Assembly (NCBI GenBank): GCA_001898035.1
Contig: MKRX01000016.1
Span: forward strand, 67,371 to 131,370
Length of the DNA: 64,000 bases
DNA from: Armatimonadetes bacterium 55-13
Lineage (GTDB): Bacteria > Armatimonadota > Fimbriimonadia > Fimbriimonadales > Fimbriimonadaceae
Direction: 5' to 3'
Positions 2,425 through 9,697 of the stretch are shown here, piece after piece. The notes under the pieces are model-generated. The model saw only the letters and a program-made list of their open reading frames with translations, was not told the DNA's origin and did not search any database. The translations under genes and the position numbers were made by a program. Each line of letters starts with the position of its first letter. The first letter of the stretch is position 1.

Positions 2425-3267
2425 TTACTTGTATTCCGCAATCGTGCTAGAGTCAGTCTGAATCTGCTGGACTTGGGCGGCGCCAATGTATTTGTTGATG
2501 CCCCAAAGGTCGCTAGCAATCGTCTGACGCAACTTATACGTCTTCGCATGACCGTCGAAGAAAGTGAAGTTTCCACCGCCTCGACCATCCGTCATCGAAC
2601 AGCCGATACCTGTTCCTCCCCAGGGTTGACCTTGATCGGTGCATTGATAGGTCAGGCCAACGTAAATGTCAATGTCAGGGAATGGTAGTTTCGATGGGGC
2701 CACCATGATGGTGCCGGACGGATTATCGAACAGGGTCATGGATCCGCCACCCCCGGAGTCGCCCACGTTGGGCCAGAACCGCCCGCCGAGTTCGTTGTAT
2801 CCGGCGCTCATGTTTACTGCGTAAGAGCGTGGCCATCGCGTAGTGTCGTCTCCCGCTCCGGCTAAAGACCACCATACCGGCGCCTTTGACCAGGCATTCT
2901 TCGAAATTGGCGATTCAAATATTCCGCCTGGCGCGGCCGTCTGGAATGCTGTCCCCACACTGTTGGCTCGACTTCCTCCGTTCTTAATGTACGGATAAGT
3001 CAAGTCCTTCCAGTTCAACATATTTGCCGTCCACCAATACGAGGGATCCGAAACCACTCGATTGAACGGAGCTGTATCGTCGTAGTCGGCCGCATACATC
3101 ATAAAACCCAGCCCGATTTGCTTCATATTGCTCAGATCGGCTGTCTTCTTGGCAGCTTGCTTAGCCTGAGCAAAGACCGGAAACAGGATTGCGGCGAGGA
3201 TCGCGATGATGGCGATGACGACGAGTAATTCTATCAGGGTAAATCCCCTTCGGCGAAATGAATACAT
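2425..3267 (-). CDS. Type II secretion/type IV pilus-like pseudopilin (H-X9-DG group)
   Basis: The 280-residue protein carries a type III prepilin signal: RRRG at 5-8, then FTLIELLVV, with glutamate at position +5 of the mature chain, so a PilD-type peptidase would cut after Gly8 and methylate Phe9. The hydrophobic helix spans about residues 9-30. The C-terminus ends with [12 protein letters not shown], the DG block of the H-X9-DG (DUF1559-like) family. The usual histidine ten residues before DG is a glycine here, so the motif is degenerate. GGAGG lies 8 bases before the ATG at 3267; a longer reading frame would contain this ribosome site inside the gene. Such pseudopilins often accompany carbohydrate genes in Armatimonadota and planctomycetes. 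Confidence 0.88.
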
Positions 3268-3295
3268 GGCTTTAACCTCCATTGGCTGTGACCTT

Positions 3296-4417
3296 TTACT
3301 GTGATGAAGCGGAAAGCCGACCGTTAGCGATAATCTCGCCTTCGGCCGGACATAAATCGGCGTGTACTTGGTGGATTTCAGGCTTATTGCCTTCCCCACT
3401 CATGGCGCGGCGGAGAACATCTCCGGCGGTGCGCCCAATTTCAAAGACTCGGGGCGTAATTCGATGGATCGCCCAGGGCTTTCGAAGAATCATCGGCGGT
3501 CCATCGTTAAACGTTGCGATCGCGATGTCTTCCGGCACGGATTTTCCGACCTTGTCGCATACGTCCAGAACGATGGGGACGAACATATCCTGGACGCAGA
3601 AGATAGCGGTTGCCGGATGGTCTCCATAGACCAACATGCTCCTAACCGCGTCTTGAACGGCCAGTCCAAATCTTCGATCGGGGGAATGTTCCAAATCGGC
3701 AGACAAGAACCGAATACGATCTTCTGCGATGGGCAATCCGTCCGCAATCAACGCATCTTCATAAGCCTTGAACCGTTCCTGGACGGTTGACACGTGAGGC
3801 TTGTGAAAACTCAAGAACGCCACGCGATCGTGACCTTGGTCGATCATCGCCTTGATCGCTTGCCTCGTGATGATGTAGTTGTCAGAAAGGGCAACTGGCG
3901 CGCTGACGCCTTCAGGTACGCGGTCCAACATCACCAGAGGAAAGCCCCGTGCGATGATGCGGTTCAACAACGGCGTGTTTTCACGGGCGCTTGTGGGGAG
4001 CAAAACGATGCCGTCGGTTTCCTCACTCATCTTCCAGAGAAGTTCGGCCTCGCGCAAAGGATCGTTCTGGGAATCGCAAAGGACGAGAGAATACTCGTCG
4101 GAAAGTCCGGCCTGAATACCCCGGAGTAGCCCTGGTTGAGGAAATCCATACGACTCGTCGACAATATCGACGATGAATCCTATGCGCTTTGTCTTTACAA
4201 TAGAGCGTTCAGCGACAACGGTTCCCCACCGGCGCTGTCTCGTAACCAGTCCCTTGGCCTGAAGTTCCCTTAGCGCACGGTGCGCCGTTGGACGGCTGAC
4301 GCCGTATGTGACAGCAATGTCATCCTCGGATGGCAGGCGATCGCCTGGATTTAACTCACCGGCGAGTATCTGCGATTCGAGAGCGGCAGTGATGTTCTTC
4401 CATCGTGCTTCGCTCAT
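3296..4417 (-). CDS. GntR-type winged-helix regulator with sugar-binding LacI-like C-terminal domain
   Basis: Residues 1-75 form a GntR winged helix ([20 protein letters not shown] is the recognition region), and residues about 77-365 form a periplasmic-binding-protein-like sensor as in LacI and AraR of Bacillus ([25 protein letters not shown]). Such hybrids bind DNA as dimers and release it on binding a sugar. It is the first gene of the cluster, 28 bases upstream of the pseudopilin, so it most likely controls the pseudopilin-to-GH76 genes and itself in response to an oligosaccharide. I could not identify its operator. Confidence 0.88.
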
Positions 4418-4540: not shown

Positions 4541-5869
4541 CTATTCTGCGGCAAATTCGGGAATCGCCGATATTCCGCCGGACCGTTCCTCCATGGATGC
4601 GACGCAGGTCGCGATGGTCATGTCTCCCGTCACGTTGAGGACGGTTCTGCTCATGTCCATGATGCGGTCTATCCCTACGATCAGGCCAACGGCGCTCGCT
4701 GGAACGTTGAGCGTAGAAAGTACTCCTGCCACCATCGGCAACGAGCCAGCTGGCACCCCAGCGGTACCTATGCCGCCGACAATCGCCAAGCCCATCACCA
4801 TGAATTGTTGACTCACGGTCAGATCCACCCCAAAGAGGCGGGCCAGAAAAACAATTGTGATCCCTTCGAAAAGCGCGGTGCCGTTCTGGTTGGCGGTAGC
4901 GCCTACCGTCAAGACAAAGTTTCCAATTTGTCGGGGAAGACCAAGGTCTTCTTCAGCGGCTTTAAGGGCGGTAGGCAAAGTGGCGTTGCTTGAGCTCGTG
5001 GCGAAAGCGGTTGCCATGACCGTCCGCATTTGTTTGAAGAACTCCAAGGGACTTCTTCGCGCGATGAATTTGATCACCAAACTGTAGGTGACAAATTGGT
5101 GAATCGCAAGCGCGACAAGCACCACCATAACGTAGATTCCCAGGGTTGCAAAGAGCTCATAGCCAAGCTTGGCTGCGCTTCCGAAGACCAGACAGAAGAC
5201 GCCGATAGGGGCAATCGCCATGGCGTAGTCGATGATCTTGAGCGAAACGGCAAAAAGACCTTCCAAAAATGCCTTGACGGGAAGAGCCTTCTCCGGCTCA
5301 ATCGACGCTAAGGCAATCCCAAAGATCAGCGCGAAGACCATAAACGGCAGAATTCCGCCGCTAAAGGCCGCCACCGCGTCTCGAATGGGATTCTTAGGAA
5401 TCATCCCCAGCGCGGCCTTGTCCTTTTCCTGCACAGGGTCGCCAACCGACTTTTCTTCTTTCGAGTGCTCCTGAATCAACGTTTGCTTTTGGGCCGCCGA
5501 AATTCCCTTGGAAGGGTCGACTAGATTAATCGCTCCGACGCCAATGAGGACGGCGATTCCGCTGAGAAATATCGTCATCAGAAGCGATCGAATGCCAATA
5601 CGGCCCACCTTCTTGATGTCGCCAAGTTCCGAGACCCCTAGGACGAGTGCCGCAAAGAGAAGCGGAACCACGATCATGAAGATCATGTTCAAGAAGATTT
5701 CTCCGACCGGCTTTGTCCAGTCGACCATCTTGCCCAGCACCTCTGAACCTGGGCCAAGGCCTTGGCGTGCTGCAAAACCCGCTAAGGCACCCAGCGCGAG
5801 GCCAATGAGAATTTTCGTGTGAAGCGGTACGCGTTTGCGAGCGCCCGGTTCAACCGCGCCTAATTTCAT
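4541..5869 (-). CDS. Dicarboxylate/amino acid:cation symporter (DAACS family)
   Basis: The 442-residue protein has about eight membrane segments and the family hairpin motifs: TSSSNATLP at 291-299 (usually TSSSAATLP), ANQNGTAL at 326-333 (usually NMDGTAL) and GIGTAGVPAG near 372-381. Family members import glutamate, aspartate, succinate or similar substrates with Na+ or H+. An unusual polar, lysine/glutamate-rich insert lies at about residues 118-160. The change of NMDGTAL to NQNGTAL removes an acidic residue linked to cation binding, so coupling may differ. The gene begins 3 bases after the preceding small membrane protein and is last in a six-gene operon. Confidence 0.87.
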   Translation of the reverse strand: MKLGAVEPGARKRVPLHTKILIGLALGALAGFAARQGLGPGSEVLGKMVDWTKPVGEIFLNMIFMIVVPLLFAALVLGVSELGDIKKVGRIGIRSLLMTIFLSGIAVLIGVGAINLVDPSKGISAAQKQTLIQEHSKEEKSVGDPVQEKDKAALGMIPKNPIRDAVAAFSGGILPFMVFALIFGIALASIEPEKALPVKAFLEGLFAVSLKIIDYAMAIAPIGVFCLVFGSAAKLGYELFATLGIYVMVVLVALAIHQFVTYSLVIKFIARRSPLEFFKQMRTVMATAFATSSSNATLPTALKAAEEDLGLPRQIGNFVLTVGATANQNGTALFEGITIVFLARLFGVDLTVSQQFMVMGLAIVGGIGTAGVPAGSLPMVAGVLSTLNVPASAVGLIVGIDRIMDMSRTVLNVTGDMTIATCVASMEERSGGISAIPEFAAE

Positions 5870-5872
5870 CCA

Positions 5873-6172
5873 TCACTTCCCTAACCCGACCGATTTCAAC
5901 AGTGCCGCCGGAATTTCTGGATTGATGATGAATATCCAAGCGATGACAGACACGGTTCCCCAAAAGGCCGAGATCAGAACAGGATAGCGCAGGATACAGC
6001 GTGTGTCACGTTTTCCCTTGAAATGAGCGGCCAAATAAAGGATTGCCGCCAGCGAAGAGGCGACCGGCAATGTGTATCGGCCGGCCAAAAACGCCACCGT
6101 AGCAATCTTACAGAACTGGAATGCAACTCCCTCTAGCCTTTCCCCGGTCGTCTTTGTAGGTGAAGTGATCAT
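5873..6172 (-). CDS. Small integral membrane protein, unknown
   Basis: A 99-residue protein with two clear hydrophobic segments (about residues 36-52 and 66-86) joined by a basic loop (HFKGKRDTR). I do not recognise the family. Its ATG overlaps the stop of the preceding zinc-ribbon gene in an ATGA arrangement and its own stop is 3 bases before the symporter, so it is almost certainly co-translated with both. It could be an accessory subunit of the transporter or of the lipid-related proteins upstream. Confidence 0.65.
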   Translation of the reverse strand: MITSPTKTTGERLEGVAFQFCKIATVAFLAGRYTLPVASSLAAILYLAAHFKGKRDTRCILRYPVLISAFWGTVSVIAWIFIINPEIPAALLKSVGLGK

Positions 6173-6492
6173 CGCTTCTTAAACCCTCGAATCATCATCG
6201 CCAGAAGGGCGATGAAGACTAAGATTCCGACCAGTCCTATAAGCCCTGTGAAGACAGAGTCCTGCTGATTGGGAACGCCAGATAGCGCCAGAAAACAACC
6301 ACCCAAGCAGCCAGCGGGCAAACCAAAAATGATAAAGAGAACGATCCAAACGATAGGAGTCTGACGCGTCGCCCCTTGTCCGTCTCCTCGGTAACCACAA
6401 GCCGCACAGTAGATTTGGCTTGAGGGACGATACGCGCCACAGTTTGGACAGGGCGATCCTGGTGTTTGGACAGGCGGAGGTGTGCTGCTCAT
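6169..6492 (-). CDS. Zinc-ribbon membrane protein A
   Basis: Starting at the ATG at 6492, which overlaps the Lgt-like stop as ATGA, the protein has 107 residues. The N-terminal third holds a CPNC-X10-CAAC zinc ribbon (about residues 16-33), followed by two hydrophobic segments (about 44-66 and 76-99) and a basic FKKR tail that suggests a cytoplasmic C-terminus. This zinc-ribbon-plus-two-helices layout is shared with the protein at 7205-7510, so the operon encodes two similar adaptors. Function is unknown to me. Confidence 0.75.
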   Translation of the reverse strand: MSSTPPPVQTPGSPCPNCGAYRPSSQIYCAACGYRGDGQGATRQTPIVWIVLFIIFGLPAGCLGGCFLALSGVPNQQDSVFTGLIGLVGILVFIALLAMMIRGFKKR

Positions 6493-7208
6493 GGTCTTTG
6501 AGGAATGGTTGAATGGACTTGCGATTCGCGAATGCGAATCCACATTGCGCGCAGGAGAACATAGGCGACCAATTCCAGGCAAAGCCATTGCATAGCCGTT
6601 AGTCCCAAGATGTAAGAGTCGTTAGCGCGAAGAAATTCAAGAAAGAACCGGGTGCTCCCAAATCCAAGCAGGTAGGTCCGCCAAAGATCACCCTCGCGGC
6701 GGAGTCGAGGCTTGAGAACAATTAGGATGGCAAAGAGAATGGCTGCTGTTAGGGCGCTGTAAAGTTGAACGGGATGTCTCTCAGCTCCGTGCTGGTGTAC
6801 CGACCAAGGCGCCTCACACACCGTTCCGTAGCAGCACTGATTAAAAAAACAGCCCAGCCGGCCAACGGATTCGCCCGCCGGTAGTGCTAAGGCAAAGAGG
6901 TCGCCCGTGCCGCGCTTAATCCCCAACTTGCGTTTCGTGACGATGACTGAGATCCAACCAAGGATCAGTCCTCCAAAAAGGGCCTTACCTCCAGCCTTTG
7001 GATCGAAAATAACCCACCAAGGGGCGGTAATGGGCCAGCCATCTACCAATAACTGGGTCACCTTGGCGCCCAAAATTCCTCCGATGAATCCGGCAAGCGC
7101 GATAACTTGCATACCCGTCGTGAGGAGCTTCTGGCGACGCGCCTCCAGCCAAAGGACGACAAATCCAACGACAAACCCCAACCCGGTAAGAACTTCTCCC
7201 AGCGTCAC
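6489..7208 (-). CDS. Lgt-like prolipoprotein diacylglyceryl transferase family membrane protein
   Basis: From the GTG at 7208 (GTGA overlap with the previous gene, AAAGAGG upstream) the protein has 239 residues and about seven membrane segments. Lgt family landmarks are KALFGGLILG near 75-84, VGRLGCFFNQCCYG at 115-128, HPVQLYSAL at 145-153 and RFFLEFLR at 187-194. Lgt moves diacylglycerol from phosphatidylglycerol to the lipobox cysteine. The classical GRxGNFxNGE signature is altered: the Arg is kept but Asn becomes Cys and a CC pair appears. It is also shorter than typical Lgt (260-290). I therefore call it Lgt-like, possibly acting on another acceptor or lipid. A longer start would overlap the upstream gene heavily. 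Confidence 0.8.
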   Translation of the reverse strand: MTLGEVLTGLGFVVGFVVLWLEARRQKLLTTGMQVIALAGFIGGILGAKVTQLLVDGWPITAPWWVIFDPKAGGKALFGGLILGWISVIVTKRKLGIKRGTGDLFALALPAGESVGRLGCFFNQCCYGTVCEAPWSVHQHGAERHPVQLYSALTAAILFAILIVLKPRLRREGDLWRTYLLGFGSTRFFLEFLRANDSYILGLTAMQWLCLELVAYVLLRAMWIRIRESQVHSTIPQRP

Positions 7209-7510
7209 CTTCGCATTGCCCTCTTTAACCAGCCTAAGACCCAGATACCAACAAAGACGAATGCGAGGACTTGGAAGAATCTGCTCCTTCCCAACAGCCC
7301 GAAACCAAACAGAGCCCCCACCGCTGTATAAGCCAGAAATCCGCAACCTCCCAACATCCCGAAGATAGCCGCCCACATCGTCAGTCCTTGAAGCCATTTC
7401 GGAGGGCGCTTAGGCGCGTTGACCTGCCAGCCACAATTCGAGCACGTCATGGTCCCGTGCATCGGCTTTTCGCAGTTGGGACAATGGGTGGGGATGACAA
7501 TGGGGTTCAT
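7205..7510 (-). CDS. Zinc-ribbon membrane protein B
   Basis: A 101-residue protein with a CPNC-X9-CSNC zinc ribbon at about residues 10-26, a linker (NAPKRPPKW) and two hydrophobic segments (about 43-73 and 79-95) ending in a basic tail KRAMRR. The start overlaps the radical SAM stop (ATGA) and its stop overlaps the Lgt-like GTG start. Both overlaps imply coupled translation. No enzyme motif is visible; a membrane adaptor or regulatory role is the simplest guess. Confidence 0.75.
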   Translation of the reverse strand: MNPIVIPTHCPNCEKPMHGTMTCSNCGWQVNAPKRPPKWLQGLTMWAAIFGMLGGCGFLAYTAVGALFGFGLLGRSRFFQVLAFVFVGIWVLGWLKRAMRR

Positions 7511-9051
7511 CGAGCCATCTTCAATGGGACCCGGCCCTTGGGAAAGTCACTGGCATCTGGAAAGAGCCAGCGCCAACAAAAAGAGTGTCTTCGAGGATCG
7601 TCTTCATACGTTCCGACATGAACGCAACATTGCCGAATCCTTGCTTCGTGAAAAGTATGCGCGTCCATGAACTGTTTGACCGTCACTCTGAAAGTGCGTT
7701 CAGCCATTTTGTCGAGTAATTTTTCGCCCCTCGCCTTCGACCAAACGGCTCCGAGCAAGTCGGTGAGTCCGGGTATGCAGTCGCACATTCGCATCATGTC
7801 TCCGGCCAATTGAATCGCTCCAACCTTCTGCTGCTCGCTGAATACCCGTTGCAAGACGCCTGACTGAATGAGCTCCTTCACGCTGTCGGAGGCGTTTTCA
7901 AAAGATATGGTGTTGGCGACGAAGTGAATCCAATTCTTCAATTCGTTGCGGCCAATCAGCTTGGGTAGCGATCGCCACTCTCCGTCTTTCATCTGAATGA
8001 GATAGCTGATGTCGCAGCAGTCTTTGTGGGAACAGGGCAGCGGGATGAAGTCGGAAGCATCCACTAAACCGGCTGTCTGTTCGCCTAAGCGACTAAGCAC
8101 CCCGGTGGGAGTGACGCGATCAAGCGGATCATACGTGGTCGTTCGACCGGATCCGAACATCGGCTGTATCGCAAGTCCTGCGCATCTTGGAATTGCTAAA
8201 CCGGTCCGAAGAACTGCGCCCACCTCGTCCTGGTTGACACCCTTGCAAACGGTCATGACCAAGGTAGTGAATACTCCCGCTTGGTTCAGGCGACAAAGTG
8301 CTAGCTGCTTCTCTTCTGAAACGTCTTCGCCTCGAAGAATTTCGTAGGTTTCTGACCTTATTCCATCGAATTGTAGATACACCTCGATTTTCTTTCGGTG
8401 TTCCGCTAGGAATCGGAGGAAGGCGTCATCTTTGGCAATTCGTCTCCCATTCGAGTTGAGCATCACGCGAGTGACGTTCCGCTCCATGATTCGCAACAGT
8501 ATCTCTTGAATATCTTGTCGCACGGTGGGCTCTCCCCCAGAGATCATCACGACACTTAACTTCCCCGCTTCCCGATCGATCGTGGTATCCACGGTATGAA
8601 GAATCTGATCAAGGCTTGGAAATGAATCGATCGCGGGAGACCCGGGGGGAAGGGCCGTTGCGTAGCAAGTCGGACAAGAGTAATTGCAGTTCTCCGTAAC
8701 GTTTAAGAGAAGAATACAACTGTGCTGACCATGGCTGGCGGGGAGACCGAGGCGATAGCCATCGGGAAATCCGGCGAAATTGTCCGCTCGATCCGGGGTG
8801 ACTTCAAGCGTCGGTGTACTCCACCCCATTCTTGCCGCCCAAATCTCTCGACTCTCTTCATAAAGACTCTCCGTAGTTCCATGACTTTTGCAGAATCTTC
8901 GGAGCCAAACTTTCCCATCGTGCGAAATCAACATTCCGTCAACGAATGCATCGGCATCGGTGCTTGTGCGAGGACGTTCAGCAAAACACTGTGGGCAAAC
9001 CGTTCGTGTGTATTCCTCAATGAGATAGGGTCGCGGAGATAGCCCAGCCAT
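7507..9051 (-). CDS. Radical SAM enzyme of the Tes/MSS-like (MJ0619-type) family
   Basis: The 514-residue protein has an N-terminal cysteine module (VCPQCF at 18-23, FCKSHG at 53-58), then a radical SAM core with CX3CX2C at Cys122, Cys126 and Cys129 (TENCNYSCPTCYA), SGGEPT at 171-176 and NSNGRR at 199-204. More cysteines follow: PCSHKDCC at 339-346, MCDC near 420, and CCVHVG at 475-480 with Cys492. This arrangement of N-terminal CPxC/CxxHG module, core and auxiliary cluster cysteines matches the archaeal tetraether synthase (Tes) and bacterial membrane-spanning lipid synthase relatives, which join fatty or isoprenoid tails through C-C bonds. That match is by memory of motifs, so substrate is uncertain. 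First gene of the operon. Confidence 0.8.
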   Translation of the reverse strand: MAGLSPRPYLIEEYTRTVCPQCFAERPRTSTDADAFVDGMLISHDGKVWLRRFCKSHGTTESLYEESREIWAARMGWSTPTLEVTPDRADNFAGFPDGYRLGLPASHGQHSCILLLNVTENCNYSCPTCYATALPPGSPAIDSFPSLDQILHTVDTTIDREAGKLSVVMISGGEPTVRQDIQEILLRIMERNVTRVMLNSNGRRIAKDDAFLRFLAEHRKKIEVYLQFDGIRSETYEILRGEDVSEEKQLALCRLNQAGVFTTLVMTVCKGVNQDEVGAVLRTGLAIPRCAGLAIQPMFGSGRTTTYDPLDRVTPTGVLSRLGEQTAGLVDASDFIPLPCSHKDCCDISYLIQMKDGEWRSLPKLIGRNELKNWIHFVANTISFENASDSVKELIQSGVLQRVFSEQQKVGAIQLAGDMMRMCDCIPGLTDLLGAVWSKARGEKLLDKMAERTFRVTVKQFMDAHTFHEARIRQCCVHVGTYEDDPRRHSFCWRWLFPDASDFPKGRVPLKMAR

Positions 9052-9139: not shown

Positions 9140-9697
9140 ATGATGATCGCGCTCATTTCCCTCCTTCTAGGACTCCAGGCTCAAGCAAACGGCCCAAGTC
9201 TGGTTGCATATGACCTCAAGGGAAAACCAGTAGCTCCCCTGGTTGCCGATGGTCAGAGCAAGGCAACCGTATTGATCTTTTACATCGCCCATTGTCCAAT
9301 TGGCCAGAAGATGACGCCCGAGATCAATCGCGTGTTTCGAGAATTCAAGCCAAAGGGAATGCGAATGTACATGGTCCATGAAGAAATGACCATGCCTCCG
9401 GCAGACTTGGCCAAAGAGGCGCGAGAGTATGGTCTCATGCCGCCTATTCTCATAGATAGAGAGCATCGGTTAATGAGTCACTGCGGTGCAAGGATCAGCC
9501 CGCAGGTCTTTGTTTACGATGCCCGCATGAAACTGCAATACCATGGCCGCATCAACGACTTCTTTTATGGTCTCGGGCAGATGAGATCCAAGGTGACTCA
9601 CCATGACCTGCGCGACGCAATTGCTGCGGTCGTGCAGGGTTTAGCGCCTAAGGTAGCCAAGACGGAAGCGGTGGGTTGCGTCTTACCGACCGACTAG
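9140..9697 (+). CDS. Secreted redoxin (thioredoxin-fold) protein
   Basis: A 185-residue protein with a signal peptide (residues 1-16) and a thioredoxin fold. The active-site region reads HCPIGQKMTPEINR, so it has a single peroxidatic-like cysteine followed by Lys and Pro-Glu as in redoxin/SCO-like proteins, and a cis-proline-like SPQVFVYD later. The C-terminus ends in AVGCVLP, a second cysteine that could resolve or bind metal. It belongs to the AhpC/TSA-redoxin superfamily; electron-transfer partner is unknown. Its stop overlaps the convergent exonuclease III stop by 4 bases. ATGs at 9140 and 9143 are both possible. Confidence 0.78.
   Translation: MMIALISLLLGLQAQANGPSLVAYDLKGKPVAPLVADGQSKATVLIFYIAHCPIGQKMTPEINRVFREFKPKGMRMYMVHEEMTMPPADLAKEAREYGLMPPILIDREHRLMSHCGARISPQVFVYDARMKLQYHGRINDFFYGLGQMRSKVTHHDLRDAIAAVVQGLAPKVAKTEAVGCVLPTD

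Follow-up and report, generated by a model that had tools for sequence, protein, structure and literature searches.

What does a relative of the tetraether lipid synthase Tes do beside a second copy of the lipid transferase Lgt? The question is raised by an operon of Armatimonadetes bacterium 55-13 (genome 4.5 Mb, 99% complete) on contig MKRX01000016.1, within a stretch of 64,000 nucleotides (positions 67,371 to 131,370), which we call the window; all coordinates below are its own. The operon consists of six minus-strand genes, encoding in order a radical S-adenosylmethionine (SAM) enzyme, a zinc-ribbon membrane protein (ZR1), an Lgt-like protein, a second zinc-ribbon membrane protein (ZR2), a small membrane protein (p99) and an SDF symporter (Table 1). 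An initial annotation of the window had suggested a pathway that joins or transfers membrane-lipid tails. Our comparisons point to an uncharacterised pathway of the radical SAM enzyme, the Lgt paralog and p99, with the radical SAM enzyme in a new branch of the known Tes superfamily. That the locus is a membrane-lipid modification module with these three core parts is, in our judgement, about an even call. Its most likely role is phosphatidylglycerol (PG)-linked lipid modification.

As the initial annotation anticipated, the lead enzyme is related to Tes, both by sequence and by fold. Pfam identifies a Radical_SAM domain (PF04055) and the zinc ribbon PF23545, labelled 'HMPTM', as the Tes family was formerly called. 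The best solved structure by sequence is Tes of Methanocaldococcus jannaschii (7tol, E 7e-38). An AlphaFold2 model built from 44 sequences (predicted local distance difference test score, pLDDT, 84; predicted template modelling score, pTM, 0.87) is matched by Foldseek over its whole length to 7tom and 7tol (TM 0.74 and 0.76, respectively, with ~22% identity in the structural alignment). Thus, judging from the model, the enzyme has a Tes fold. The next PDB matches (SkfB, MoaA and SuiB) span only about half of the protein. The closest named relative, at 62% identity, is encoded in an Armatimonadetes metagenome-assembled genome. The best NCBIfam match is TrsS (NF045646; 224 bits, most of the protein covered, cut-off 490), and the score against the Tes model is 188.5 bits (NF045702; cut-off 450). 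We rejected TrsS membership, given a score far under the cut-off; the joint branch of far Armatimonadota (we distinguish near, mid and far groups in that phylum) and acidobacterial sequence scores higher against this model (327-376 bits). The function of TrsS is not described in PMC13188914. Selenocysteine is optional in the TrsS family name, and the gene in the window has no in-frame TGA and thus encodes none. Three matches of the Tes/TrsS type in the Acidobacteriota sample (G478:C101, G383:C89 and G494:C121) contain one in-frame TGA, and selenocysteine versions are possible there.

The radical SAM enzyme was found in 51 of the 291 Armatimonadota genomes searched, on several branches. We examined 40 Armatimonadota loci, calling neighbours with iterated hidden Markov models (HMMs), and identified Lgt near the enzyme and on its strand in 33 and p99 in 25. 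A scan of 84,980 species genomes yielded 80 named loci from Armatimonadota, Chloroflexota, Eremiobacterota, Actinomycetota and others, and Lgt lies within a few kilobases on the same strand in 72 of them. Seven of the eight loci without Lgt are short contigs or contig ends, and L161 alone has full flanks. The Lgt neighbour seen by the initial annotation is therefore kept in related genomes. The complete core (radical SAM enzyme, Lgt and p99) recurs in Armatimonadota, Actinomycetota, Chloroflexota and Eremiobacterota, and the first two genes also occur together in an acidobacterium. Near Armatimonadota have the radical SAM gene first, followed by Lgt, any zinc-ribbon genes and p99; most others have the order Lgt, radical SAM, p99. 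Conservation of this core in several phyla makes the association more than chance, and its retention despite the changed gene order suggests a joint function. One mycobacterial genus encodes the enzyme in 38 of 148 sampled genomes, and a match was found in 12 of 296 sampled genomes of its phylum, about half of them close copies. In the literature searched, with subscription journals outside its coverage, we found no paper describing the pair of radical SAM enzyme and Lgt.

Phylogenetic analysis of 96 sequences, by a quick tree in which L160 sits on a long branch, places all Lgt-linked radical SAM enzymes in one clade (SH-aLRT 99), with Tes and Tes-like proteins across a 100% branch. L161 places next to the Lgt-linked clade. 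Acidobacteriota supplied controls: 27 of the 199 genomes examined encode a true Tes that scores over the cut-off, and a Tes-like protein class also occurs in the phylum. Like the enzyme in the window, these acidobacterial proteins (PMC8941075) belong to the superfamily and have its cofactor core. Unlike it, they form a separate clade, and neither Lgt nor p99 was found at any of 19 control loci (about 8 kb of flank where the contig allowed). The sole Lgt-positive acidobacterial locus of the control batch encodes the radical SAM enzyme already found by the species-genome scan, which falls in the Lgt-linked clade. The acidobacterial Tes-like class itself, in the sample L202-L220, is widespread; it keeps the residues corresponding to Met439 and Tyr459 of Tes and lacks the N-terminal cluster cysteines.

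Does the Lgt-linked enzyme catalyse the Tes reaction? Taking residue roles from PMC9433317, we compared 75 Lgt-linked enzymes with M. jannaschii Tes (also GDGT-MAS; MJ0619; 7TOL/7TOM) and 19 acidobacterial Tes and Tes-like proteins. The rubredoxin site (C9, C12, C33 and H36, in the motif CPxC...CxxH), the CX3CX2C motif and the SAM-binding Gln268 are conserved in every group compared, and the likewise SAM-binding Arg275 is conserved in 74 of the 75 Lgt-linked proteins, the exception being one far-clade sequence. The cysteines of the C-terminal cluster (equivalents of Tes C338, C455, C456 and C470, by alignment) are present in 22/22 near-clade sequences and are also kept in mid Armatimonadota, Eremiobacterota, Chloroflexota and nearly all Actinomycetota. 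The cysteine modules described initially are thus present in the window, except for those of the N-terminal auxiliary cluster of Tes. The ligands of this [Fe4S4] cluster (C73, C77 and C80) are Cys in 0/22 near-clade sequences and are lost also in Eremiobacterota, Chloroflexota and Actinomycetota; mid Armatimonadota mostly keep one position, and far Armatimonadota and L160 keep the cluster cysteines. A further difference from Tes is an extra CC after the SHxD motif. At the position of the labile Met439, Lgt-linked proteins have Lys (68/68) or Thr (7/7), and they never have Tyr at that of Tyr459; in the near clade these positions hold Lys (22/22) and V, T or S (22/22), respectively. In contrast, both residues are present in 20/20 of the Tes and Tes-like proteins (19/19 of the acidobacterial ones). 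They are complete in 1000 archaeal homologs, and their roles in coupling have been discussed (PMC9433317). Mainly because these two residues are replaced, we do not call the Lgt-linked enzyme a Tes. It shares the Tes fold and probably not the same reaction step.

The alternative that survives best is nevertheless a bacterial tail-joining synthase, making membrane-spanning lipids with Lgt as a helper. The full-length Tes fold and the C-terminal cluster cysteines kept in near and mid Armatimonadota, Eremiobacterota, Chloroflexota and almost all Actinomycetota agree with it, and a proposal that assigns the synthesis of branched glycerol dialkyl glycerol tetraethers (brGDGTs) to bacterial Tes homologs, acidobacterial ones among them (PMC8941075), has not been confirmed (PMC11868695). 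However, the replacement of residues tied to the coupling step, which are intact in the acidobacterial homologs, makes a Tes-type tail-to-tail bond unlikely, and the loss of the N-terminal Fe-S cysteines adds to this doubt. The product is thus probably of another type. The genome also lacks the DUF2229 part of a Ger-type ester reductase, and the acidobacterial control loci indicate that Tes needs no Lgt neighbour. We consider tail joining, which the initial annotation had favoured, an unlikely explanation.

The second enzyme is a true paralog within the LGT family, as first annotated. It scores 132 bits against PF01790 (gathering score 24.9) and 98.1 bits against the lipoprotein equivalog TIGR00544, under the cut-off of 118.9. 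A canonical, higher-scoring Lgt sits elsewhere in the same genome, and most other genomes tested also have two. Like Escherichia coli Lgt (5AZB/5AZC), the paralog has equivalents of R143, G154, Y235, R239, E243 and R246 in the family alignment. Unlike E. coli Lgt, it is a second copy beside a canonical one, Y26 and H103 are replaced, N146 is Cys, and the region from GRxGC to HPxQxY is shorter. Residues essential in the E. coli enzyme are Y26, H103, R143, N146, G154 and R239. R143 and R239 are reported to position the PG phosphate, and Leptospira Lgt also has Cys at the N146 position (PMC13251419). The canonical Lgt of this organism likewise has Cys at N146, with Phe at H103, and we therefore rejected the N146 substitution as a sign of altered chemistry. 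Because the equivalents of R143 and R239 are kept and the Cys is shared with the canonical copy, PG-dependent transfer by the paralog is plausible from its sequence. MSMEG_5408 of Mycobacterium smegmatis may be a mycobacterial member, as suggested by the N146 substitution reported in PMC13251419.

If the module carries out PG-linked lipid modification, the Tes-fold enzyme would abstract a hydrogen from an acyl chain of a bilayer lipid. The Lgt paralog would bind PG and pass on its diacylglyceryl part, with something other than an ordinary lipoprotein as acceptor, and p99 would keep the soluble enzyme at the membrane or assist it there. The zinc-ribbon membrane proteins of Armatimonadota, which vary in number, may be additions that act as accessory factors or acceptors. 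We infer the lipid tail as substrate, the placement of both enzymes on one pathway, the order of the steps and the role of p99. Several observations weigh against this scheme. The literature searches yielded no lipid data for any organism carrying the module, and radical SAM enzymes of related fold, such as SkfB and SuiB among the next PDB matches, modify peptides. Far Armatimonadota and L160 retain only the C456 position of the C-terminal cluster cysteines. Both keep Lgt, in a second layout with other partners: the operon at L050, L054, L058 and L160 encodes the radical SAM enzyme, an ICMT/PEMT-type membrane methyltransferase, a DUF4395 protein and the Lgt paralog, in an order that varies in L058, and p99 was not found in the far Armatimonadota or L160 loci. 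Because of the missing cysteines and the different partners, the chemistry may differ between branches. The link to Lgt outlasts this swap of auxiliary clusters and helper genes.

The initial annotation had missed p99, which is the third conserved member of the core and represents an undescribed family. Iterative HMM searches identified p99 in 86 of 120 loci, always on the strand of the radical SAM gene and mostly directly downstream of it. No Pfam or NCBIfam model matches the family, and the idea that p99 is a short DUF4395 protein was rejected (hhalign probability 0.5%). The protein is nearly all membrane helix, and its alignment contains two invariant Cys (C21 and C59) and one invariant Gly. 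These residues, together with its position directly beside the radical SAM gene in most phyla, would suit a substrate. Peptides are the substrates of many radical SAM enzymes that have auxiliary clusters, and the enzyme here could be a maturase of p99 or of the zinc-ribbon proteins, with the Lgt paralog anchoring the product; the likeness to SkfB and SuiB fits. However, only the lipid enzyme Tes is matched across the whole fold, the likeness to peptide maturases is limited to about half of the protein, and we recognised no leader-like part in p99. A maturase is improbable on this evidence, and comes next after tail joining.

ZR1 and ZR2 have the common zinc-ribbon and two-helix shape that the initial annotation gave them, and as a pair of kept neighbours they fared less well. 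In near Armatimonadota, the interval from Lgt to p99 encodes between none and about seven small two-helix zinc-ribbon proteins. Even the congeneric locus L062 has no ZR1, and in related clades the proteins are either absent or built differently. Inspection of loci from Actinomycetota and Chloroflexota revealed no such proteins. Because their number varies (0-7), we rejected them as a fixed part of the set and regard them as accessory factors or possible acceptors, not core members. At L071 the about seven tandem proteins are all different, a locally expanding family.

In many of the zinc-ribbon proteins, helix 1 closes with a small-small-Cys motif (G-x-C) that resembles a lipobox. This motif occurs in 26 of 43 near-clade cluster members; of the similar proteins encoded elsewhere, 2 of 10 have it (Fisher p 0.03). 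A Cys in whatever context is present at the helix end in 38/43 and 4/10, respectively (Fisher p 0.003); with a small control set of ten, related sequences and a motif noticed before the test, these comparisons suggest a modest enrichment. The five cluster members without any Cys there include two in L064, and the Eremiobacterota and mid-clade versions lack the helix-1 Cys. Elsewhere in the genome of the window (L231; G000:C6, about 749.7 kb), a zinc-ribbon protein with one predicted helix carries IGGC there, ahead of a larger domain that looks soluble.

The helix-1 Cys raises the third alternative, protein lipidation. The Lgt paralog would place diacylglycerol on the Cys at the outer end of helix 1, as on an internal lipobox, and the radical SAM enzyme would alter the lipid or the protein. 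LGGC is found in helix 1 of both ZR1 and ZR2, cluster members are enriched in the motif, and the zinc-ribbon genes lie in variable number between Lgt and p99, as is often the case with dedicated substrates. The inspected actinobacterial and Chloroflexota loci without zinc ribbons, the versions without the Cys and the small, non-independent comparison argue against it, and we think it rather improbable. A more specific possibility draws on both lipid modification and lipidation: the radical SAM enzyme would modify the PG tail, and the Lgt paralog would then link the modified diacylglyceryl group through a thioether to a new thiol, provided by a thiol-bearing lipid or by the internal lipobox-like Cys of a membrane-integral zinc-ribbon protein. 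Lgt chemistry would then be re-used outside lipoprotein maturation. This version is a long shot; if true, PG-tail modification with thioether transfer would give an as yet undescribed class of lipids or of lipidated membrane proteins. Mere adjacency of the two enzymes by descent, with no joint pathway, hardly merits credence: overlapping operons can hold unrelated genes, such as the symporter here, which is confined to the genus, but chance descent fails to explain a linkage that spans several phyla with changed gene order.

A branch distinct from Tes bears on how bacterial Tes homologs are read. Such homologs are being taken to indicate membrane-spanning lipids and are listed among the possible producers of the brGDGTs used in palaeothermometry (PMC8941075, PMC11868695). 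Counting the Lgt-linked clade as Tes would mislead, as the catalytic Met and Tyr are absent and an Lgt paralog is attached. Several phyla with soil and water bacteria contain members of this clade, and a quarter of the genomes sampled from the mycobacterial genus encode one. The three-gene system in culturable actinobacteria allows a direct test of the putative lipid modification.

Table 1. Genes of the operon in the window, listed in the direction of transcription (aa, amino acids).
Feature	Position	Strand	Evidence
Radical SAM enzyme, Tes superfamily, Lgt-linked clade, 514 aa	7507..9051	-	PF04055, PF23545, NCBIfam, PDB 7tol, AlphaFold2/Foldseek, tree
ZR1, 101 aa, CxxC-CxxC zinc ribbon and two helices, LGGC in first helix	7205..7510	-	
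Lgt paralog, GTG start, 239 aa	6489..7208	-	PF01790 E 2e-38, PDB 5azb, family alignment
ZR2, 107 aa, CxxC-CxxC zinc ribbon and two helices, LGGC ending first helix	6169..6492	-	weak Zn_Ribbon_1 match
p99, 99 aa, two-helix membrane protein	5873..6172	-	iterative HMM, alignment
SDF symporter (glutamate/aspartate or dicarboxylate type), 442 aa	4541..5869	-	PF00375 E 1e-108

The layout of the operon is as initially annotated, with ATGA/GTGA overlaps joining the genes at 7507, 7205, 6489 and 6169 and a 3-base gap separating p99 from the symporter. Among the loci surveyed, the symporter is present only in L061 and L062, of the same genus. It is a lineage-specific downstream passenger and no part of the conserved core. 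Searches of the locus gave no Rfam match and no promoter or terminator signal exceeding shuffled sequences. A divergently oriented thioredoxin/AhpC-like gene (9140-9697, plus strand) adjoins the radical SAM gene, in a position conserved in the same genus only (L042 and L062). Just downstream of the operon, a minus-strand gene (3296-4417) encodes a GntR-type DNA-binding domain fused with a LacI-type sugar-binding domain. A further minus-strand open reading frame (2425-3399) has a type IV pilin-like N-terminal segment.

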